A stretch of DNA of 10,538 nt from Oscillospiraceae bacterium. Lineage in GTDB: Bacteria > Bacillota > Clostridia > Oscillospirales > Acutalibacteraceae. The translations under genes were made by a program, and so were the position numbers. The stretch lies in assembly GCA_003517915.1 (NCBI GenBank), contig DOZQ01000139.1, forward strand, positions 3,938 to 14,475, read 5' to 3'. The notes under the pieces were generated by a model. It ran no database searches. It was not told the DNA's origin and was given only the letters and a program-made list of their open reading frames with translations. Below are positions 3,350 to 9,637 of the stretch, in pieces. Position 1 is the stretch's first letter. Every line of letters starts with the position of its first letter.

Positions 3350-3380
3350 TTTTTCCGGGCTCGGGCGCTCGGCGCTTTAT
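3350..3380. repeat. 31-base direct repeat, copy B, ending on the yicC stop codon
   Basis: Second copy of the repeat at 3208-3238 with three mismatches. It spans the yicC TAA stop (3377-3379), so one boundary of the repeated or inserted material coincides with the end of that gene. This suggests that a repeat element landed at, or grew from, the end of yicC, though chance placement cannot be excluded from one window. Confidence 0.75.
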
Positions 3381-4264
3381 TCTATATTCTGTACCTGCTC
3401 ACGGATTTTTTCAATCTCCGATTTTATATCCACGACCCTGCCCGCAAGCTCGGCGTCCTGTGCCTTCGAACCTATGGTATTGGCCTCGCGGTTCATCTCC
3501 TGCACTAGAAAATCCAGCTTGCGCCCGACCGGTTCTTCCGCCTCGAGCATTGTCCGCATCTGGCCGATATGACTGCGCAGCCGCACGGTTTCTTCAGATA
3601 CGGCAATTTTGTCGGCAAAAATCGCCGTTTCGGCAAGCAGTCTTTGTTCGTCAAACTGTACGTTCTCAAGCAGTTCACGCATTCGCTCCTCAAGCTTGGC
3701 GCGGTACTCCAGCACAGTCTGGGGCGAGCGCTCCTCGACATAATCCACATGAGCCAAGATTGTCCGCATACGGTCATCTATGTCTTTTTTCAGCCGTTCA
3801 CCCTCTGTCAGGCGCATGTCCACAAGCGATTCGCAGGCTTCTCTCAGCACCGGCTCCACCGCCTGCCACACCGCCTGCTCGTCCTCGATTTCCCTTCTCA
3901 GCGACAGAACGTCCGGATATCTCGCCAAATCATGCGCGGTGACATTGTTTGCCACGCCGCATTCCCGCGCTATGCGCTCGAGCGCGTCGAAATAATCCTT
4001 TGCGAGCGACGCGTTGACCTTTACCGCGCCGGACTCCGATTCGACTATGTCAATGTTGAGATAGACGTCGACCTTGCCTCTAGAAATCGAGCCCTGCAAA
4101 AAGGCTTTGATTTTATCCTCAAGAAAGGAGTATATTCGCGGCATTCTCGCGGAAAATTCAAAATAGCGGTGGTTGACCGATTTAATTTCCATCGTGACGT
4201 CCATGCCGCTGTGGCTGCCCTCGGCCCGGCCGTAACCAGTCATGCTTTTCAAACAGACATTCAT
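3377..4264 (-). CDS. yicC: YicC/YloC-family endoribonuclease
   Basis: YicC/YloC proteins are endoribonucleases linked to RNA turnover and stationary-phase survival in E. coli and B. subtilis. The roughly 295-residue product has the normal length. It carries the N-terminal signature LKSMTGYGRAE, then EIKSVNHRYFEFSARMPR, ISRGKVDVYLNI, and the C-terminal DUF1732 block with EEPVGRKLDFLVQEMNREANTIGSKA and a final KSEIEKIREQVQNIE, the expected family ending. The middle (about residues 150-215) is helical and charged. The start is uncertain: GTG 4267 and ATG 4264 are adjacent to a GAAAGG motif and too close to it, while TTG 4252 would give MKSMTGYGRAE, closer to the usual family N-terminus. The gene is first in the minus-strand operon, with a sigma-A promoter at 4368-4397, and is followed by an unusually long spacer before remA. 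Confidence 0.95.
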   Translation of the reverse strand: MNVCLKSMTGYGRAEGSHSGMDVTMEIKSVNHRYFEFSARMPRIYSFLEDKIKAFLQGSISRGKVDVYLNIDIVESESGAVKVNASLAKDYFDALERIARECGVANNVTAHDLARYPDVLSLRREIEDEQAVWQAVEPVLREACESLVDMRLTEGERLKKDIDDRMRTILAHVDYVEERSPQTVLEYRAKLEERMRELLENVQFDEQRLLAETAIFADKIAVSEETVRLRSHIGQMRTMLEAEEPVGRKLDFLVQEMNREANTIGSKAQDAELAGRVVDIKSEIEKIREQVQNIE

Positions 4265-4283
4265 CACCTTTCAAGTCGTCGGG

Positions 4284-4513: not shown

Positions 4514-4568
4514 GTTTCCAACATATTTTTTAGAAATTCTCAATGATAAATCCCCGGGAGGCGCGGAC

Positions 4569-5615
4569 ATGACCGGATATATGGTACAGACCGAACGGAT
4601 TTTAGACAATTTCAGACTTATTAAAAAACGGGTGGGCAAAACCCTTATCATCCCGGTGCTCGCCGGCAACGCGTTCGGTCTGGGCGACGTCGCGGTCGCG
4701 CGTATGCTGGCCGAGGCGGAGGGTATACGGCTGTTCGCCGTTTCCCGGCTGGAGGAAGCCGAGCGGCTTAAAAGCTCCCTTCACGGCATCGACGTGCTGC
4801 TTACCACGCCTTACACAACCGAGCAGGATCTTGAAAAGATAATCCGCGCGGACATAATCTCGTCGGTCGGCACCAACGAAACCGCCGTGCGCCTTTCCGG
4901 CATAGCCGCGCGCATGGGGCGAAAGGCAAGGGTTCATCTCAAGTTTGACACCGGCTGCGGCAGAACCGGCTATCTGCCGGAGGACGCGACAAAGGCGGCG
5001 CAGACGCTTAAATTCCTTGACGCGCTGGCCATAGAGGGCACCTACACCGATCTTTTGGGAGTAAAAAAAGAAAAGAAAGCCCGTATCCAGTATGAACGCT
5101 TTCAGCAGATTCTGCGCAGTTTTTCCAGAGAGGGACTGCCCTATGGCATGACGCACATAGTTTCCACCGGCGGGGCAATGCTCTTCCCATGGGCCAAAAT
5201 GGACGCGGTGCGGGTCGGTGAGGGACTCACCGGGCGGCTTGAAATCGCGGATAAATGGGGCTTTAAAAAGGTCGGGCGGCTGGTTTCCTATGTGTCGGAT
5301 ATCCGCTGGGTACCCGCCGGACACACTGTTTCGGAAAACGGGGCTGTGCGCATACGCAAAGCCACTAAAATCGCGGCGGTGCCGGTCGGATATGCCGACG
5401 GACTGTTTGTCGGTCGCAAACGCGGCTTCGCGCTTTACGGCAGAAGAAAAGCCTTTTGTGAAATTGCGGGCAAGCGCGCGCAGATAATAGGCCAGCCCGG
5501 CTATACCACCACCATCATCGACGTCACCGACATCGAGTGTACTCCGGGAGATATGGCGTCGTTTGACGTCAGCCCGTTTTACGTAAATCCAAGTGTGAGG
5601 CGGGACTATGTCTGA
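4569..5615 (+). CDS. Alanine racemase-fold protein lacking the PLP lysine (probable pseudoenzyme)
   Basis: The 348-residue product follows the alanine racemase (Alr, fold type III) layout from end to end: KFDTGCGRTGY (residues 125-135), QYERF, THIVSTGG, VRVGEGLTGR (from 214), VPVGYADG with the second catalytic Tyr at 275, and a C-terminal ending in DVTDIE...PGD. The motif that normally reads V-K-A-[ND]-A-Y-G-H-G is LAGNAFGLG at residues 31-39, so the PLP-binding lysine is Ala32. The usual C-M-D segment of the C-terminal domain is replaced by G-Y-T, and the family THFA histidine by Asp (GTYTDLL). Flanking motifs are in frame, so this is not a frameshift. I infer it cannot form the normal internal aldimine and is a non-catalytic or repurposed homologue. 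GGGAGG at 4556-4561 sets ATG 4569; its stop overlaps the next start by 8 bases, implying coupled translation with the decarboxylase. Confidence 0.82.
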   Translation: MTGYMVQTERILDNFRLIKKRVGKTLIIPVLAGNAFGLGDVAVARMLAEAEGIRLFAVSRLEEAERLKSSLHGIDVLLTTPYTTEQDLEKIIRADIISSVGTNETAVRLSGIAARMGRKARVHLKFDTGCGRTGYLPEDATKAAQTLKFLDALAIEGTYTDLLGVKKEKKARIQYERFQQILRSFSREGLPYGMTHIVSTGGAMLFPWAKMDAVRVGEGLTGRLEIADKWGFKKVGRLVSYVSDIRWVPAGHTVSENGAVRIRKATKIAAVPVGYADGLFVGRKRGFALYGRRKAFCEIAGKRAQIIGQPGYTTTIIDVTDIECTPGDMASFDVSPFYVNPSVRRDYV

Positions 5616-6915
5616 GCTGCCGCTCTTTGACGCTATAAAGCGGCATCTGGCCGAAAACCGGTCGCGCTTTCACACGCCCGGGCACTCGGGGCGCACCGCA
5701 AGCCTTTATCCCCTAAGCGGGATTTTGCCCTACGATTTAACCGAGATCGGTGAACTGGACTCGCTGTATGAAGCTACGGGCGTCATTGCTGAATCGGAGG
5801 TTTTGGCCGCGCGGGTTTTCGGGTCGTACTCTACCCTGTTCAGCGCCGGAGGAGCCACGCTGTGCATCCAGGCCATGCTAAGCCTTGCCGCAAAGCCCGG
5901 AGACAAGGTTTTGTTTTCAAGGAATCTTCACCGCTCGGCTATAAACGCCTGCGCGCTTTTGGATATTCATCCCGTATTCGCCTACCCCGGCCAAAACGGC
6001 CGGATACCGCCCGAGGAGATAAATCGACTTTTGGCTTCGGCGGATATAAGCGCGGTGTATCTCACCAGCCCCGACTACTACGGCCGGCTGCAAAGCATAT
6101 CCGAAATCGCCGCCATCTGCGAAATTCATAATCTGCCGCTGCTTGTGGACAACGCCCACGGCTCTCATCTTATTTTTTTTGATATGCATCCGCTGACATT
6201 GGGCGCCGAAATGACCGCCTGCTCAGCACATAAAACCCTGCCGGTTCTCACCGGCGGGGCTTATTTGAATCTGCGCGGCCAACGTTTCGCGGCGGGAGCA
6301 AAATCCGCAATGGCGGTATTCGGCTCCACCAGTCCGTCCTATCCGGTGCTGCTTTCGCTCGAGCTATGCCGGGACTGGTGCGAAAAAGAAGGCCGAAACG
6401 CTTTTTCGCGGCTTAAATCAAAGGTGGACGCTGTTCGGCATGAAGCCGTGCGGCAGGGCTTTAGATTTGAGACTGAACTGACCGATCCGGTGCGGCTGCG
6501 GTTTGATACCGGCGCTTTGGGCATTGACGCAAGGCAGGCCGCCGCCGTTTTTTTAGCGCACGGCGTACAGCCCGAGCTTGCCGACCGCTCGAACGTGGTG
6601 TTTATCCCCACCCCGTTTCACACCGAAGAGGATTTTAGCCACCTGTGCTCGGCGGTAAAATGCTTAAACCCGCTCGGGCACACACACCGCCAGTCCCCAC
6701 CTCCACGCCCCGAAACGGTTTTGCCGGTGCGGGAAGCTGCGTTTGCCGCGTGGGAATTTATATCCGTAAAAAATTCCGCCGGGCGGGTCGCCGCCGGAGC
6801 GGTCTGTCCCTGCCCGCCGGGTATCCCTCTGATTATTCCGGGAGAAAAAATCGACGGAGACGTAATACTTCATCTATTGGGGTCTGGTATTGAAACGGTA
6901 AAGGTGGTAAAATAA
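5608..6915 (+). CDS. Orn/Lys/Arg decarboxylase-family PLP enzyme (YaaO/SpeA-like)
   Basis: This 435-residue protein belongs to the fold type I PLP decarboxylases acting on arginine, lysine or ornithine. Visible signatures are FHTPGHSG (residues 21-28), DLTEIGELDSL, FSAGGATLCIQAML (PLP phosphate region), YLTSPDYYG, LLVDNAHGSHL (the PLP-ring Asp) and SAHKTLPVLTGGAYL with the Schiff-base Lys209. Length is close to B. subtilis YaaO-type short decarboxylases, which lack the large C-terminal part of the inducible enzymes; a C-terminal domain (about 365-435) with a conserved PPGIPLIIPGE segment is present. The exact substrate cannot be read from the sequence. Its ATG overlaps the stop of the racemase-like gene. 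DarA follows 33 bases after its TAA; in B. subtilis the neighbours are yaaO-tmk-yaaQ, so tmk is absent here. Context supports a YaaO orthologue with polyamine-type decarboxylation as the likely role. Confidence 0.88.
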   Translation: MSELPLFDAIKRHLAENRSRFHTPGHSGRTASLYPLSGILPYDLTEIGELDSLYEATGVIAESEVLAARVFGSYSTLFSAGGATLCIQAMLSLAAKPGDKVLFSRNLHRSAINACALLDIHPVFAYPGQNGRIPPEEINRLLASADISAVYLTSPDYYGRLQSISEIAAICEIHNLPLLVDNAHGSHLIFFDMHPLTLGAEMTACSAHKTLPVLTGGAYLNLRGQRFAAGAKSAMAVFGSTSPSYPVLLSLELCRDWCEKEGRNAFSRLKSKVDAVRHEAVRQGFRFETELTDPVRLRFDTGALGIDARQAAAVFLAHGVQPELADRSNVVFIPTPFHTEEDFSHLCSAVKCLNPLGHTHRQSPPPRPETVLPVREAAFAAWEFISVKNSAGRVAAGAVCPCPPGIPLIIPGEKIDGDVILHLLGSGIETVKVVK

Positions 6916-6948
6916 AATCAGATCAGATATCGGAGAGGATGAATACCC

Positions 6949-7269
6949 ATGAAGCTGATTATGGCTATTGTCAACCGAGATGATTCGGGCACGGTTTCCC
7001 GCGCGCTGACCGACGGCGGCTTTTCGGTGACAAAGCTCGCGACCACCGGCGGCTTTTTAAAGGTCGGCAACACGACATTTCTTATCGGAGCGGATAAAGA
7101 CCGGGTGGAGCAGGCCATTAAAATTATTGCGGAGCATTCCCAAAAGCGCACCCAGATGATGCCCGACACCTCTTCTTACAGCAGCGATTTTATCTCGCTG
7201 CCGATTGAGGTTACGGTAGGCGGCGCAACCGTTTTTGTAATGGATGTGGAGAGATTTGAAAAGCTTTGA
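6949..7269 (+). CDS. darA: Cyclic di-AMP receptor DarA/PstA (PII-like, YaaQ)
   Basis: DarA (also PstA, YaaQ) is a trimeric PII-like protein that binds the second messenger c-di-AMP; its downstream target remains unclear in most species. The 106-residue product is of normal length (about 109). It shows the family features MKLIMAIVNRDDSG at the N-terminus, LTDGGFSVTKLATTGGFLKVGNTTFLIG (residues 21-48; the TTGGFL...GN part lines the ligand pocket), and the C-terminal strand VTVGGATVFVMDVERFEKL. A GGAGAGG site at 6932-6938 precedes ATG 6949 by 10 bases. holB begins inside its last codons, overlapping by 26 bases, as expected for co-translated neighbours in this Firmicutes cluster. Presence of this receptor implies the cell makes c-di-AMP. 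Confidence 0.96.
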   Translation: MKLIMAIVNRDDSGTVSRALTDGGFSVTKLATTGGFLKVGNTTFLIGADKDRVEQAIKIIAEHSQKRTQMMPDTSSYSSDFISLPIEVTVGGATVFVMDVERFEKL

Positions 7270-8248
7270 ACCGGGTCTTGCCGGCTTTGCCGGAAACCGC
7301 CGCGCAGTCTCCTCCCTGAGGAAAATGCTTACTGAAAACCTTCTGCCGCACGCGATTTTGCTTGAAGGAGAACCCGGAACCGGCAAAAAAACGCTCGCCC
7401 GCCTTATCGCGGCGGGCACTGTTTGCACGGGGAATAATAAACCCTGCGGCGTATGCGCGGGCTGCGTCAAGGCGGCCGCGGACAATCATCCCGATATAAC
7501 GGTAACACAGGCCGAGCACGGCAAGGGCATCGGCGTCGATGAGATAAGGCGGCTCAGGCAGGACGCGTTTGTGCTCCCGAACGAGGCGGCACGCAGGGTG
7601 TATATGATTTTCGAGGCCGGCAGCATGACCGAGCAGGCGCAAAACGCCCTTTTGAAAATTCTCGAGGAGCCTCCCGCGCCGGCGCTTTTTCTGCTCACCT
7701 GCACCGCGCGCTCATCGGTGCTGCCCACGGTGCTGTCGCGCGCGGCAGTCTTTTCCCTTCACCCGCCTGTCAAAGAGGAAGCCCGCGCCGCGGTTTTAAA
7801 GCTGCGGCCAAACAGCGCGGCGCGGGATATTGACGCGGCGTATGAAAGCTCCGGCGGCAACATAGGCCGTATGCTCGAGGCACTGGACGGCTCGAACGAC
7901 AAGTCGGCGGAGTATGCCTCACAACTGCTGGACGCCATTACACACCTGTCCGAGCTGGAATTTTTAAAGCTTTCGGCCCGTTTTGACCGCGACCGGGCTC
8001 TGGTTTTCTCTGTGCTCGAAAGGCTTCTCCTCCTCCTCAGGGATGCCGCCGCGATATGCGCGCACAGCGGTGTTTCGCTTTCGGGCGAGCGCGATATCCC
8101 GGCCGCCGCTTCGAAATATGGCCTTTCCCGGCTGCTTTCATGCATGAAAGCGGTTGAAATCGCGATAGACGCGCGGCCCGCGAATCCGAACGGGGCGCTT
8201 TTGCTCACCCGCCTGTCAGCGGAACTGTACGCAGCGGCGGGTAAATAA
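7244..8248 (+). CDS. holB: DNA polymerase III delta' subunit (clamp-loader)
   Basis: Delta' is the stationary subunit of the clamp loader that puts the beta sliding clamp on DNA. The 334-residue protein has an AAA+ fold: an apparently intact P-loop GEPGTGKKT (residues 42-50), a four-cysteine zinc module (Cys 61, 68, 71, 74; PCGVCAGC), HPDI, the IGVDEIRRL segment, and SMTEQAQNALLKILEEPP, the hallmark of DnaX/HolB proteins. The clamp-loader SRC motif reads SRA (LPTVLSRAAVF), keeping the arginine but not the cysteine. The C-terminal third is helical with a Leu-rich stretch (LERLLLLLRDAA), as in the collar domain. The start is not certain: ATG 7244 has no clear ribosome site and TTG 7256 has GGAGAG only 2 bases upstream; coupling to darA, which it overlaps, may suffice. 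The darA-holB-ricT order matches Bacillus except that yaaR is missing between darA and holB. Confidence 0.95.
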   Translation: MWRDLKSFEPGLAGFAGNRRAVSSLRKMLTENLLPHAILLEGEPGTGKKTLARLIAAGTVCTGNNKPCGVCAGCVKAAADNHPDITVTQAEHGKGIGVDEIRRLRQDAFVLPNEAARRVYMIFEAGSMTEQAQNALLKILEEPPAPALFLLTCTARSSVLPTVLSRAAVFSLHPPVKEEARAAVLKLRPNSAARDIDAAYESSGGNIGRMLEALDGSNDKSAEYASQLLDAITHLSELEFLKLSARFDRDRALVFSVLERLLLLLRDAAAICAHSGVSLSGERDIPAAASKYGLSRLLSCMKAVEIAIDARPANPNGALLLTRLSAELYAAAGK

Positions 8249-8344: not shown

Positions 8345-9637
8345 ATGACCAATGTAGTTGGAGTAAAATTTAAAGAATCCGGCAAGGTATATTACTTTGA
8401 TCCCATAGGCTTAGGTGTAAAGCTGGGAGATCATGTTATAGTCGAGACATCGCGCGGCGTCGAGTGCGGCGAGGTCGCCATGTCGGTAAAGTCCCTGCCG
8501 GACGATCAGATTGTAAAGCCCCTCAGGCCGCTGCTCAGATCCGCGACCGAAGAGGATAAAAAACGGCTTGCCGAAAACCGCCGCCGCGAAAAAGACGCCT
8601 TCGCCGTCTGCAATGAAAAAATCGCCGCACACGGCCTGGATATGAAGCTGGTGGACGTGGAATACACCTTTGACAACAACAAGGTGCTGTTTTATTTCAC
8701 CTCCGACGGTCGGGTGGATTTTCGTGAGCTTGTAAAGGATTTAGCCTCGGTATTCAGAACGCGCATCGAGCTTCGACAGATAGGAGTGCGTGACGAGGCT
8801 AAAATGCTGGGGGGATTCGGCATTTGCGGCCAGCCGTTTTGCTGTGCCCGTTTTTTGGGCGATTTTCAGCCGGTTTCAATCAAAATGGCCAAGGAGCAGG
8901 GTCTCTCGCTTAATCCGGCCAAAATTTCCGGAATCTGCGGCAGGCTTATGTGCTGTTTAAAATATGAGCAGGACGCGTATGAATATCTTTTGAAGATAAC
9001 CCCAAAGGTGGGCGCCAGTGTAAAATCCAAGGACGGCTACGGTACGGTGATAGAAAACAACCTTATAAGCGGCACGGTAAAGGTTCGCAGCAGCGCAAGT
9101 CCCGAAGCGGCCCCGCTCACCTACCGGCGGCATCAGCTGGAGTTTGAGCGGGACAAGGACGCGCCGCCTATTCCGATTCCGGAAGAAAAAGAAGAAACAA
9201 CTCCGGCCGACGCGGCACCGGATTATTCCTCCTTGTGGGGCTCTGCTCCCGGCAGGGAAGAAAAACCCGTGCATCAAAAGCACCATAAAAAAAACCAGCC
9301 TGAGAGGAAAGACAAAAACAGGCCGGACAAAAACCGCAAGGCGGAATCGTCGCGCCCGGAAAAGCCTACAGGAGCCGCGCAAAAGAATTCGCAGGAACGC
9401 AGGCCCAAGCCCCATCAGGAAAAAGGGCCAAAGTCCGACCTTAAAACAAATTTGAAGGAAAAAGCCAAATATACAAAACAGCTTTCAAGAGACAAGAAAA
9501 TAAGCTCGGCTAAAGCTCAGGGTGACAACCGGACGTCCGCTTTCAAGGGCGGCGAAAAGGCGGCGAAAAAGCCGTTTCATCATTCGCGTCGGCGCAAGAA
9601 CCCCGATTCTCCCAAAGACCTGCCGGAGGAAAAATAA
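8345..9637 (+). CDS. ricT: RicT (YaaT), PSP1-domain Fe-S regulatory protein with long basic C-terminal tail
   Basis: RicT is part of the RicA-RicF-RicT (Y-) complex that, in B. subtilis, carries Fe-S clusters and redirects RNase Y cleavage of mRNAs, with effects on sporulation, competence and biofilm. The N-terminal about 265 residues are the PSP1 domain: VVGVKFKESGKVYYFDP, GDHVIVETSRGVECGEV, RTRIELRQIGVRDEAKMLGG, then GICGQPFCC with Cys 161, 166, 167 and GICGRLMCC with Cys 198, 203, 204. Positions 161, 166, 167 and 198 coincide with the B. subtilis cluster-ligand numbering as I recall it. B. subtilis RicT is about 275 residues; this one has 430. Residues from about 270 on are low-complexity, rich in Lys, Arg, Pro, Glu, Gln and His, probably disordered, and could bind RNA or ribosomes. 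The stop is 99 bases before the ferredoxin start. No ricA or ricF is visible here. Confidence 0.95.
   Translation: MTNVVGVKFKESGKVYYFDPIGLGVKLGDHVIVETSRGVECGEVAMSVKSLPDDQIVKPLRPLLRSATEEDKKRLAENRRREKDAFAVCNEKIAAHGLDMKLVDVEYTFDNNKVLFYFTSDGRVDFRELVKDLASVFRTRIELRQIGVRDEAKMLGGFGICGQPFCCARFLGDFQPVSIKMAKEQGLSLNPAKISGICGRLMCCLKYEQDAYEYLLKITPKVGASVKSKDGYGTVIENNLISGTVKVRSSASPEAAPLTYRRHQLEFERDKDAPPIPIPEEKEETTPADAAPDYSSLWGSAPGREEKPVHQKHHKKNQPERKDKNRPDKNRKAESSRPEKPTGAAQKNSQERRPKPHQEKGPKSDLKTNLKEKAKYTKQLSRDKKISSAKAQGDNRTSAFKGGEKAAKKPFHHSRRRKNPDSPKDLPEEK

Follow-up and report, generated by a model that had tools for sequence, protein, structure and literature searches.

The window, i.e., the whole stretch of 10,538 nucleotides that was analyzed, originates from an Oscillospiraceae assembly of 2.14 Mb in 280 contigs with a completeness of ~80%. 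It hosts the following genes and features:

3377..4267, minus strand: YicC-like gene, divergent upstream neighbor (Pfam)
4556..4561, plus strand: Shine-Dalgarno-like GGGAGG (read in the sequence)
4569..5615, plus strand: gene of a predicted pseudoenzyme of alanine racemase (Alr) fold, 348 aa (ORF, Pfam, AlphaFold, Foldseek)
4662..4664, plus strand: codon GCC of Ala32 at the column of the Schiff-base lysine Lys39 (sequence and alignment)
5049..5051, plus strand: codon of Asp161, at the THFA-histidine column (alignment)
5334..5336, plus strand: codon GAA of Glu256 at the column of the catalytic Tyr265 (sequence and alignment)
5499..5507, plus strand: Gly311-Tyr312-Thr313 replacing Cys-Met-Asp (alignment)
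5608..6915, plus strand: Orn/Lys/Arg-decarboxylase-family gene (okr), with its own PLP-lysine motif SAHK present (Pfam)
6949..7269, plus strand: cyclic-di-AMP receptor, DarA (Pfam)
7244..8248, plus strand: DNA polymerase III delta-prime-like gene, holB (Pfam)
8345..9637, plus strand: PSP1-domain protein, RicT-like (Pfam)

Alr is a textbook pyridoxal phosphate (PLP) enzyme and drug target. The open reading frame at 4569-5615 starts with ATG behind a good ribosome-binding site and has zero internal stops, and both Alr domains score above their Pfam cut-offs (Ala_racemase_N with 135.5 bits, Ala_racemase_C with 46.9 bits), confirming the intact frame described in an earlier note on this DNA. The structure modeling proposed there yielded a confident Alr fold, with a mean pLDDT of 93.6 (below 50 only at residues 284-292) and a pTM of 0.89. 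The top Foldseek matches of the model were solved alanine racemases, with a TM-score of 0.89 by query length, and Pfam, AlphaFold, and Foldseek agree on the two-domain Alr fold. The score against the Alr equivalog model TIGR00492 (NCBIfam) was 140.4 bits, missing the cut-off of 168. Named relatives among the protein matches listed include a Clostridiales bacterium (56% identity) and Neobittarella massiliensis (47%).

Roles in Alr are described for Lys39, the PLP Schiff-base lysine, and for Tyr43, Ser204, Arg219, Tyr265, and Met312 in the sections of PMC3245724 drawn on here, and for Lys129 and Arg136 in those of PMC3485190. The earlier note had read the PLP lysine as replaced by alanine, and Ala32 indeed occupies this column, where all 75 canonical Alr homologues among the matches listed have Lys. 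The loss of catalytic residues is not confined to the lysine, however, as Tyr265, the base contributed by the other subunit, is gone as well: with Ala32 for Lys39 and Glu256 for Tyr265, both proton-transfer bases are absent from the window protein. Glu256 had been overlooked, as had Phe36 at the Tyr43 position and Thr200 at that of the phosphate-binding Ser204. The exchange of the THFA histidine (number 166 in Alr) for Asp161 and that of Cys-Met-Asp for Gly311-Tyr312-Thr313 were both borne out by the alignment.

The same columns were compared across a clade set of 30 sequences and a canonical set of 75 Alr matches (P0047-P0121) among the 120 listed in the protein search. P0019 and P0020 were left out of the clade set since both keep the tyrosine, both having Ser at the Lys column. 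Lys and Tyr are both kept in 75/75 canonical matches among those listed, whereas the clade has neither Lys at its column (Ser 19, Glu 10, Ala 1; Lys 0/30) nor Tyr at the Tyr265 column (0/30). Because all 30 clade sequences lack Lys at this position, a sequencing error or recent mutation at Ala32 was rejected. The homologue comparison proposed earlier consequently supports a loss of Lys fixed across the clade but not of alanine as the fixed state, which was rejected as well: Ala itself occurs in one of the 30 sequences, and Ser and Glu prevail. Likewise, the landmarks Lys125, Arg132, Arg215, and Tyr275, previously listed as retained, are all present in the window protein, but Lys125, Arg132, and Tyr275 are not clade-wide; the K129 column holds K 11, R 9, C 8, and H 2 (n = 30), the R136 column has R in 14/30, and Tyr275 is Tyr in 14/30. 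Arg215, the equivalent of Arg219 contacting PLP N1, and His196 are kept in 30/30.

These substitutions bear on the possibility that racemase activity persists, with Lys39 replaced in function by a different lysine or by a free amine. A Lys39 to Ala mutant has reportedly been rescued chemically, going by the title of a 1999 report of Watanabe et al. cited in PMC3485190. Here, however, Tyr265 is gone too, neither Arg136 nor the carbamylated Lys is retained, and no fixed lysine column was found in the 30-row clade, the best one reaching 25/30 and lying away from the motif. We therefore regard continued racemase activity as highly improbable.

By sequence, the window protein is a member of an Alr paralogue family found in its bacterial order and split from canonical Alr by a branch labeled 100* in quick trees, which were built without bootstrap. 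We scored 158 loci of this family, one per genome, derived from searches with the window protein (best matches only) and from one order-wide search using a Lys-bearing member as query, the latter matching 130 of 394 genomes at E<=1e-45, with 2 partial matches left unscored. Rows dropped were L206 (a canonical Alr), L036 (distant), and L204 (N-terminus missing, Lys unreadable). Three copies lie outside the 158: G643 and G588 (partial), both having Lys, and G029, a broken-looking copy in two frames that is split by a stretch of N. A scan of genome contigs for the family returned one distant locus, and the intact members L016 and L018 carry an acidic C-terminal tail of ~65 residues.

In total, 114 loci keep both Lys and Tyr, 43 lost one or both, and one (L204) is unreadable at Lys. 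The altered loci fall into three lineages, namely the window's clade (family f1; 14 loci), f14 (17), and f2 (12). Within f14 the Lys column holds Thr in 13 and Ser in 4 loci, and Tyr is kept in 3 of 17; among the f14 matches, Lys is absent in 119/119 readable sequences of the 120 listed out of 1036. Conversely, f2 keeps Lys in 11 of its 12 loci and lost Tyr in all 12. The lineages f14 and f2 form one clade (98*, quick tree). A metagenomic trio (P0037, P0040, and P0044) that falls inside the Lys-bearing sister group of the window's clade lost both residues. With a group chosen after inspection of the tree, an AU test rejected monophyly of the Lys-less sequences from f1 and f14 (36 rows; p 0.0094). 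On these sequence comparisons a single origin of the Lys loss is rejected; the loss is fixed in one clade and arose independently elsewhere. P0019 and P0020, with Ser at the Lys column and Tyr kept, branch just before the 30-row clade, and their state suggests that the loss of Lys preceded that of Tyr in the window's lineage; in f2, Tyr was lost before Lys. A genome with this intermediate Neobittarella copy was sought for its gene context, and none was found. Of 398 genomes sampled from the bacterial family to which the window belongs, 360 gave no match to the paralogue family (E<=1e-36), so the role of the Alr-like protein is not essential.

The Cys-Met-Asp exchange had been counted among the changed active-site blocks. 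Among the 114 Lys-bearing family members, the Cys is kept in 3 (altered in 111) and the Met in 46 (altered in 68). Being largely common to Lys-bearing members of the paralogue family, this change is no mark of inactivation and was rejected as such.

FemAB proteins are a peptidoglycan peptide-bridge family. The place directly upstream, held by the YicC-like gene in the window, is usually taken by a FemAB-family gene (PF02388; 248 bits for one representative) in the relatives bearing Lys and Tyr. With HMM-based gene calling, 110 of the 114 intact loci were found to have FemAB immediately upstream in the same orientation, the exceptions being L022, L026, L199, and L205. It is also adjacent in L204 and upstream in G643, G588, and G029. 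Among the intact exceptions, FemAB was detected elsewhere in G069, and no match was obtained in G073, G437, and G100. None of the 40 assessable altered loci (of 43; L039, L172, and L180 have <1 kb upstream) has FemAB in this position. On genome level, FemAB was found in 24/25 intact genomes tested, and it was not found in 38/43 genomes with altered loci, an absence that is less sure in some genomes because their assemblies are incomplete. These 38 comprise 10/14 altered f1 genomes and 28/29 altered f14/f2 genomes; FemAB is present in G094 of the latter, lies elsewhere in G286, G007, and G178 of the former, and is found on another contig in G184, in which the upstream side of the Alr-like gene is cut by the contig end. 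The G184 genome has ~2% contamination, and its contig C230 (3139-5204) carries a further Alr-type match of 174 bits; a FemAB match follows at a distance of no more than 0.5 kb, in reverse of the usual order.

On the tree, five independent FemAB differences could be paired, two with and three without loss of catalytic residues (sign test p 0.5). Independent events are few and the loci are themselves non-independent, which makes the FemAB link no more than suggestive. No altered copy was found beside FemAB. Loss of this neighbor is not sufficient for the alteration, and a causal relation is inferred. Neither the FemAB association nor the repeated catalytic loss was found in the literature at title and abstract level.

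Loss of catalytic residues raises the question of whether the altered genes represent decaying pseudogenes caught before the appearance of frameshifts, for which the relaxed pocket described below would also speak. Each of the 43 altered loci, however, has an open frame of 342-358 aa (although the search itself favors open frames), and clade members, the closest pair being 94% identical, still keep length and fold motifs in pairs down to 35% identity. Pairwise dN/dS values were calculated with our own Nei-Gojobori-type script for pairs with >72% identity and dS of 0.05-2.5, i.e., for close pairs only, which share sequences and hence are not independent. Median values were 0.093 for the window's clade (7 pairs), 0.154 for f14 (13 pairs), and 0.164 for f2 (8 pairs), compared with 0.119 for intact members (75 of 91 pairs), and ranged from 0.02 to 0.28 over the 28 altered pairs. 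The altered genes do not drift freely, and these values indicate purifying selection on the protein. Together with the confident Alr fold, the medians of 0.09-0.16 sustain the earlier view of a fold under selection rather than in decay, and open frames and low dN/dS contradict the expectation of disabled sister copies. We thus give gene decay very little credence.

A different picture emerged for the pocket itself. The mean entropy of nine pocket columns, with the Lys and Tyr columns excluded, was compared with that of random column sets. In intact members, only 0.26% of the random sets reached the conservation of the pocket, versus 83% in the window's clade, 69% in f14, and 18% in f2; inclusion of the Lys and Tyr columns changed the value for intact members from 0.0026 to 0.0001. 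Relaxation is local: the PLP-pocket columns have lost their unusual conservation, most clearly in two of the three lineages. In f2, the pocket shows only partial relaxation and 11/12 loci keep Lys, so this lineage may retain some PLP chemistry.

The earlier note had left open whether the protein is a pseudoenzyme or has a new, perhaps non-PLP, function. A repurposed enzyme, in which the barrel runs another reaction without PLP or with non-covalently bound PLP or another ligand, would fit the conservation of Asn34, Asp40, His196, and Arg215 in >=95% of the window's clade as well as the frequent Tyr312 (19/30) and Thr313 (28/30) in the loop of the second subunit. Conservation of these four residues points to a structural constraint or to some ligand binding that may persist. 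A new active site should be conserved, however, and within the clade the columns of the old pocket are as variable as the average; those of the phosphate site (Tyr43 and Ser204) vary as well. This variation makes a new non-PLP enzyme the less likely of the two earlier options and a repurposed enzyme in general improbable to us, while the pseudoenzyme part of the claim is supported.

Characteristics of a pseudoenzyme were found here in three respects: catalytic residues are lost across the clade, the protein is under purifying selection, and an intact homologue is encoded in the same genome. The check for a canonical alr elsewhere returned a copy on contig C125 with intact catalytic motifs and a masked stretch inside. 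Furthermore, contig C55 (864-3455) encodes a racemase whose Lys and Tyr motifs are intact, next to genes for a VanY-type carboxypeptidase and a D-Ala-D-X ligase-type protein, an arrangement resembling VanG-type clusters. A separate, higher-scoring full-length Alr-type match, judged by the match alone, was present in 39/43 other altered genomes; in G286 and G565 it occurred only as pieces near contig ends, and in G472 and G617 no separate Alr-type match was found. In one genome (G697), eight PF01168 matches were counted.

A partner of the window protein might also be sought in its direct neighborhood. The Alr-like gene and okr share 8 bases where the former ends and the latter starts, and okr lies directly downstream in the loci whose gene order was drawn. 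Counting matches anywhere in the locus, okr was detected in 26/43 altered copies, comprising 14/14 of the window's clade and 12/12 of f2. This could indicate that the protein serves the co-encoded okr product, a fold-type I PLP enzyme, rather than Alr. Yet none of the 17 f14 loci has an okr match, so that no single neighbor goes with all altered copies, and okr as the sole partner is weakened. One fully read f14 locus (L082) places the Alr-like gene presumably between mutS and mutL, judged from protein starts; the dead gene itself spans 5989-7044 on the strand of the gene. An okr partnership is possible for f1 and f2 and is not suggested by the f14 loci; as an explanation of the altered copies in general we consider it quite unlikely.

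Taken together, the window protein has probably lost all racemase function and is retained for a non-catalytic one. The dead form would most likely act by binding or regulating another protein, the most plausible partner being the active Alr of the cell, by analogy with other dead paralogues; that the active Alr is indeed its target is a tentative assignment. The ancestor may have been a racemase that served a FemAB-dependent pathway and had a second, non-catalytic role. After loss of FemAB, selection on catalysis would have lapsed and the non-catalytic role would have kept the gene, with Lys going first in the window's lineage and Tyr first in another. The dead protein would still fold as an Alr-type dimer and pair with the active Alr or otherwise tune the D-alanine supply. 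According to the part of PMC3485190 used here, two subunits together build each Alr active site, so that a dead paralogue dimerizing with Alr would change or block it. In its broadest and more speculative form, the proposal could extend to the whole FemAB-linked paralogue family being bifunctional, combining racemization for a FemAB-dependent cell-wall step with a conserved non-catalytic function, the latter exposed by repeated catalytic loss in lineages without the FemAB neighbor. Dead forms might then be dedicated regulators, e.g., inhibitory or stabilizing subunits of Alr heterodimers, as a bacterial counterpart of the antizyme inhibitor.

The repeated loss of catalysis with retention of the protein, and without the cell-wall neighbor gene, constitutes a natural experiment that may reveal functions of the Alr fold beyond catalysis, and the altered copies offer a concrete functional test in cultured gut bacteria. 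It also matters for annotation, as some public records lacking the PLP lysine are named "alanine racemase", among them entries of Neobittarella massiliensis and, within the f14 matches, of Pseudoflavonifractor and Flavonifractor. Automatic annotation can assign this name to P0020, the Neobittarella copy without the Schiff-base Lys, because its 168.4 bits exceed the TIGR00492 cut-off of 168. A further record of 471 aa (P0156) joins a dead Alr-like protein to a D-Tyr-tRNA deacylase domain lacking its start. It was treated as a likely chimera and not as a functional link, since the deacylase domain begins only at position 26 of the model and the single member of the record comes from a contig of 1.6 kb.

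Compared with known systems, the window protein shares with Alr (TIGR00492, PF01168 and PF00842) the two-domain fold (TM 0.89), the GYADG segment, and the equivalents of Arg219 and His200, but differs by the missing Schiff-base Lys and Tyr265, the altered phosphate site, and the score of 140.4 bits versus 168. The catalytic domain of the VanT serine racemase has the same fold and was among the NCBIfam and PDB matches; VanT keeps its catalytic residues, and the window protein scores 133.8 against its cut-off of 460. Closest are the FemAB-adjacent, Lys-bearing Alr paralogues of the same order, for which no published name was found. They belong to the same family by tree, lack the longer C-terminal segment of canonical Alr as the window protein does, mostly have the Cys of Cys-Met-Asp altered, and share in part the okr-darA-holB-ricT neighborhood; unlike the window protein, they keep Lys and Tyr and adjoin FemAB. 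An Alr homologue without the lysine was not found in the literature at title and abstract level, a mention inside full texts being possible. In terms of mode of action, the nearest parallel is provided by the ornithine-decarboxylase antizyme inhibitors, dead homologues of a fold-type III PLP enzyme that act by protein binding, although these are eukaryotic, regulate ODC/antizyme, and belong to a different family. A dead paralogue of deoxyhypusine synthase, in turn, activates its partner, as stated in the part of PMC3663545 referred to here.
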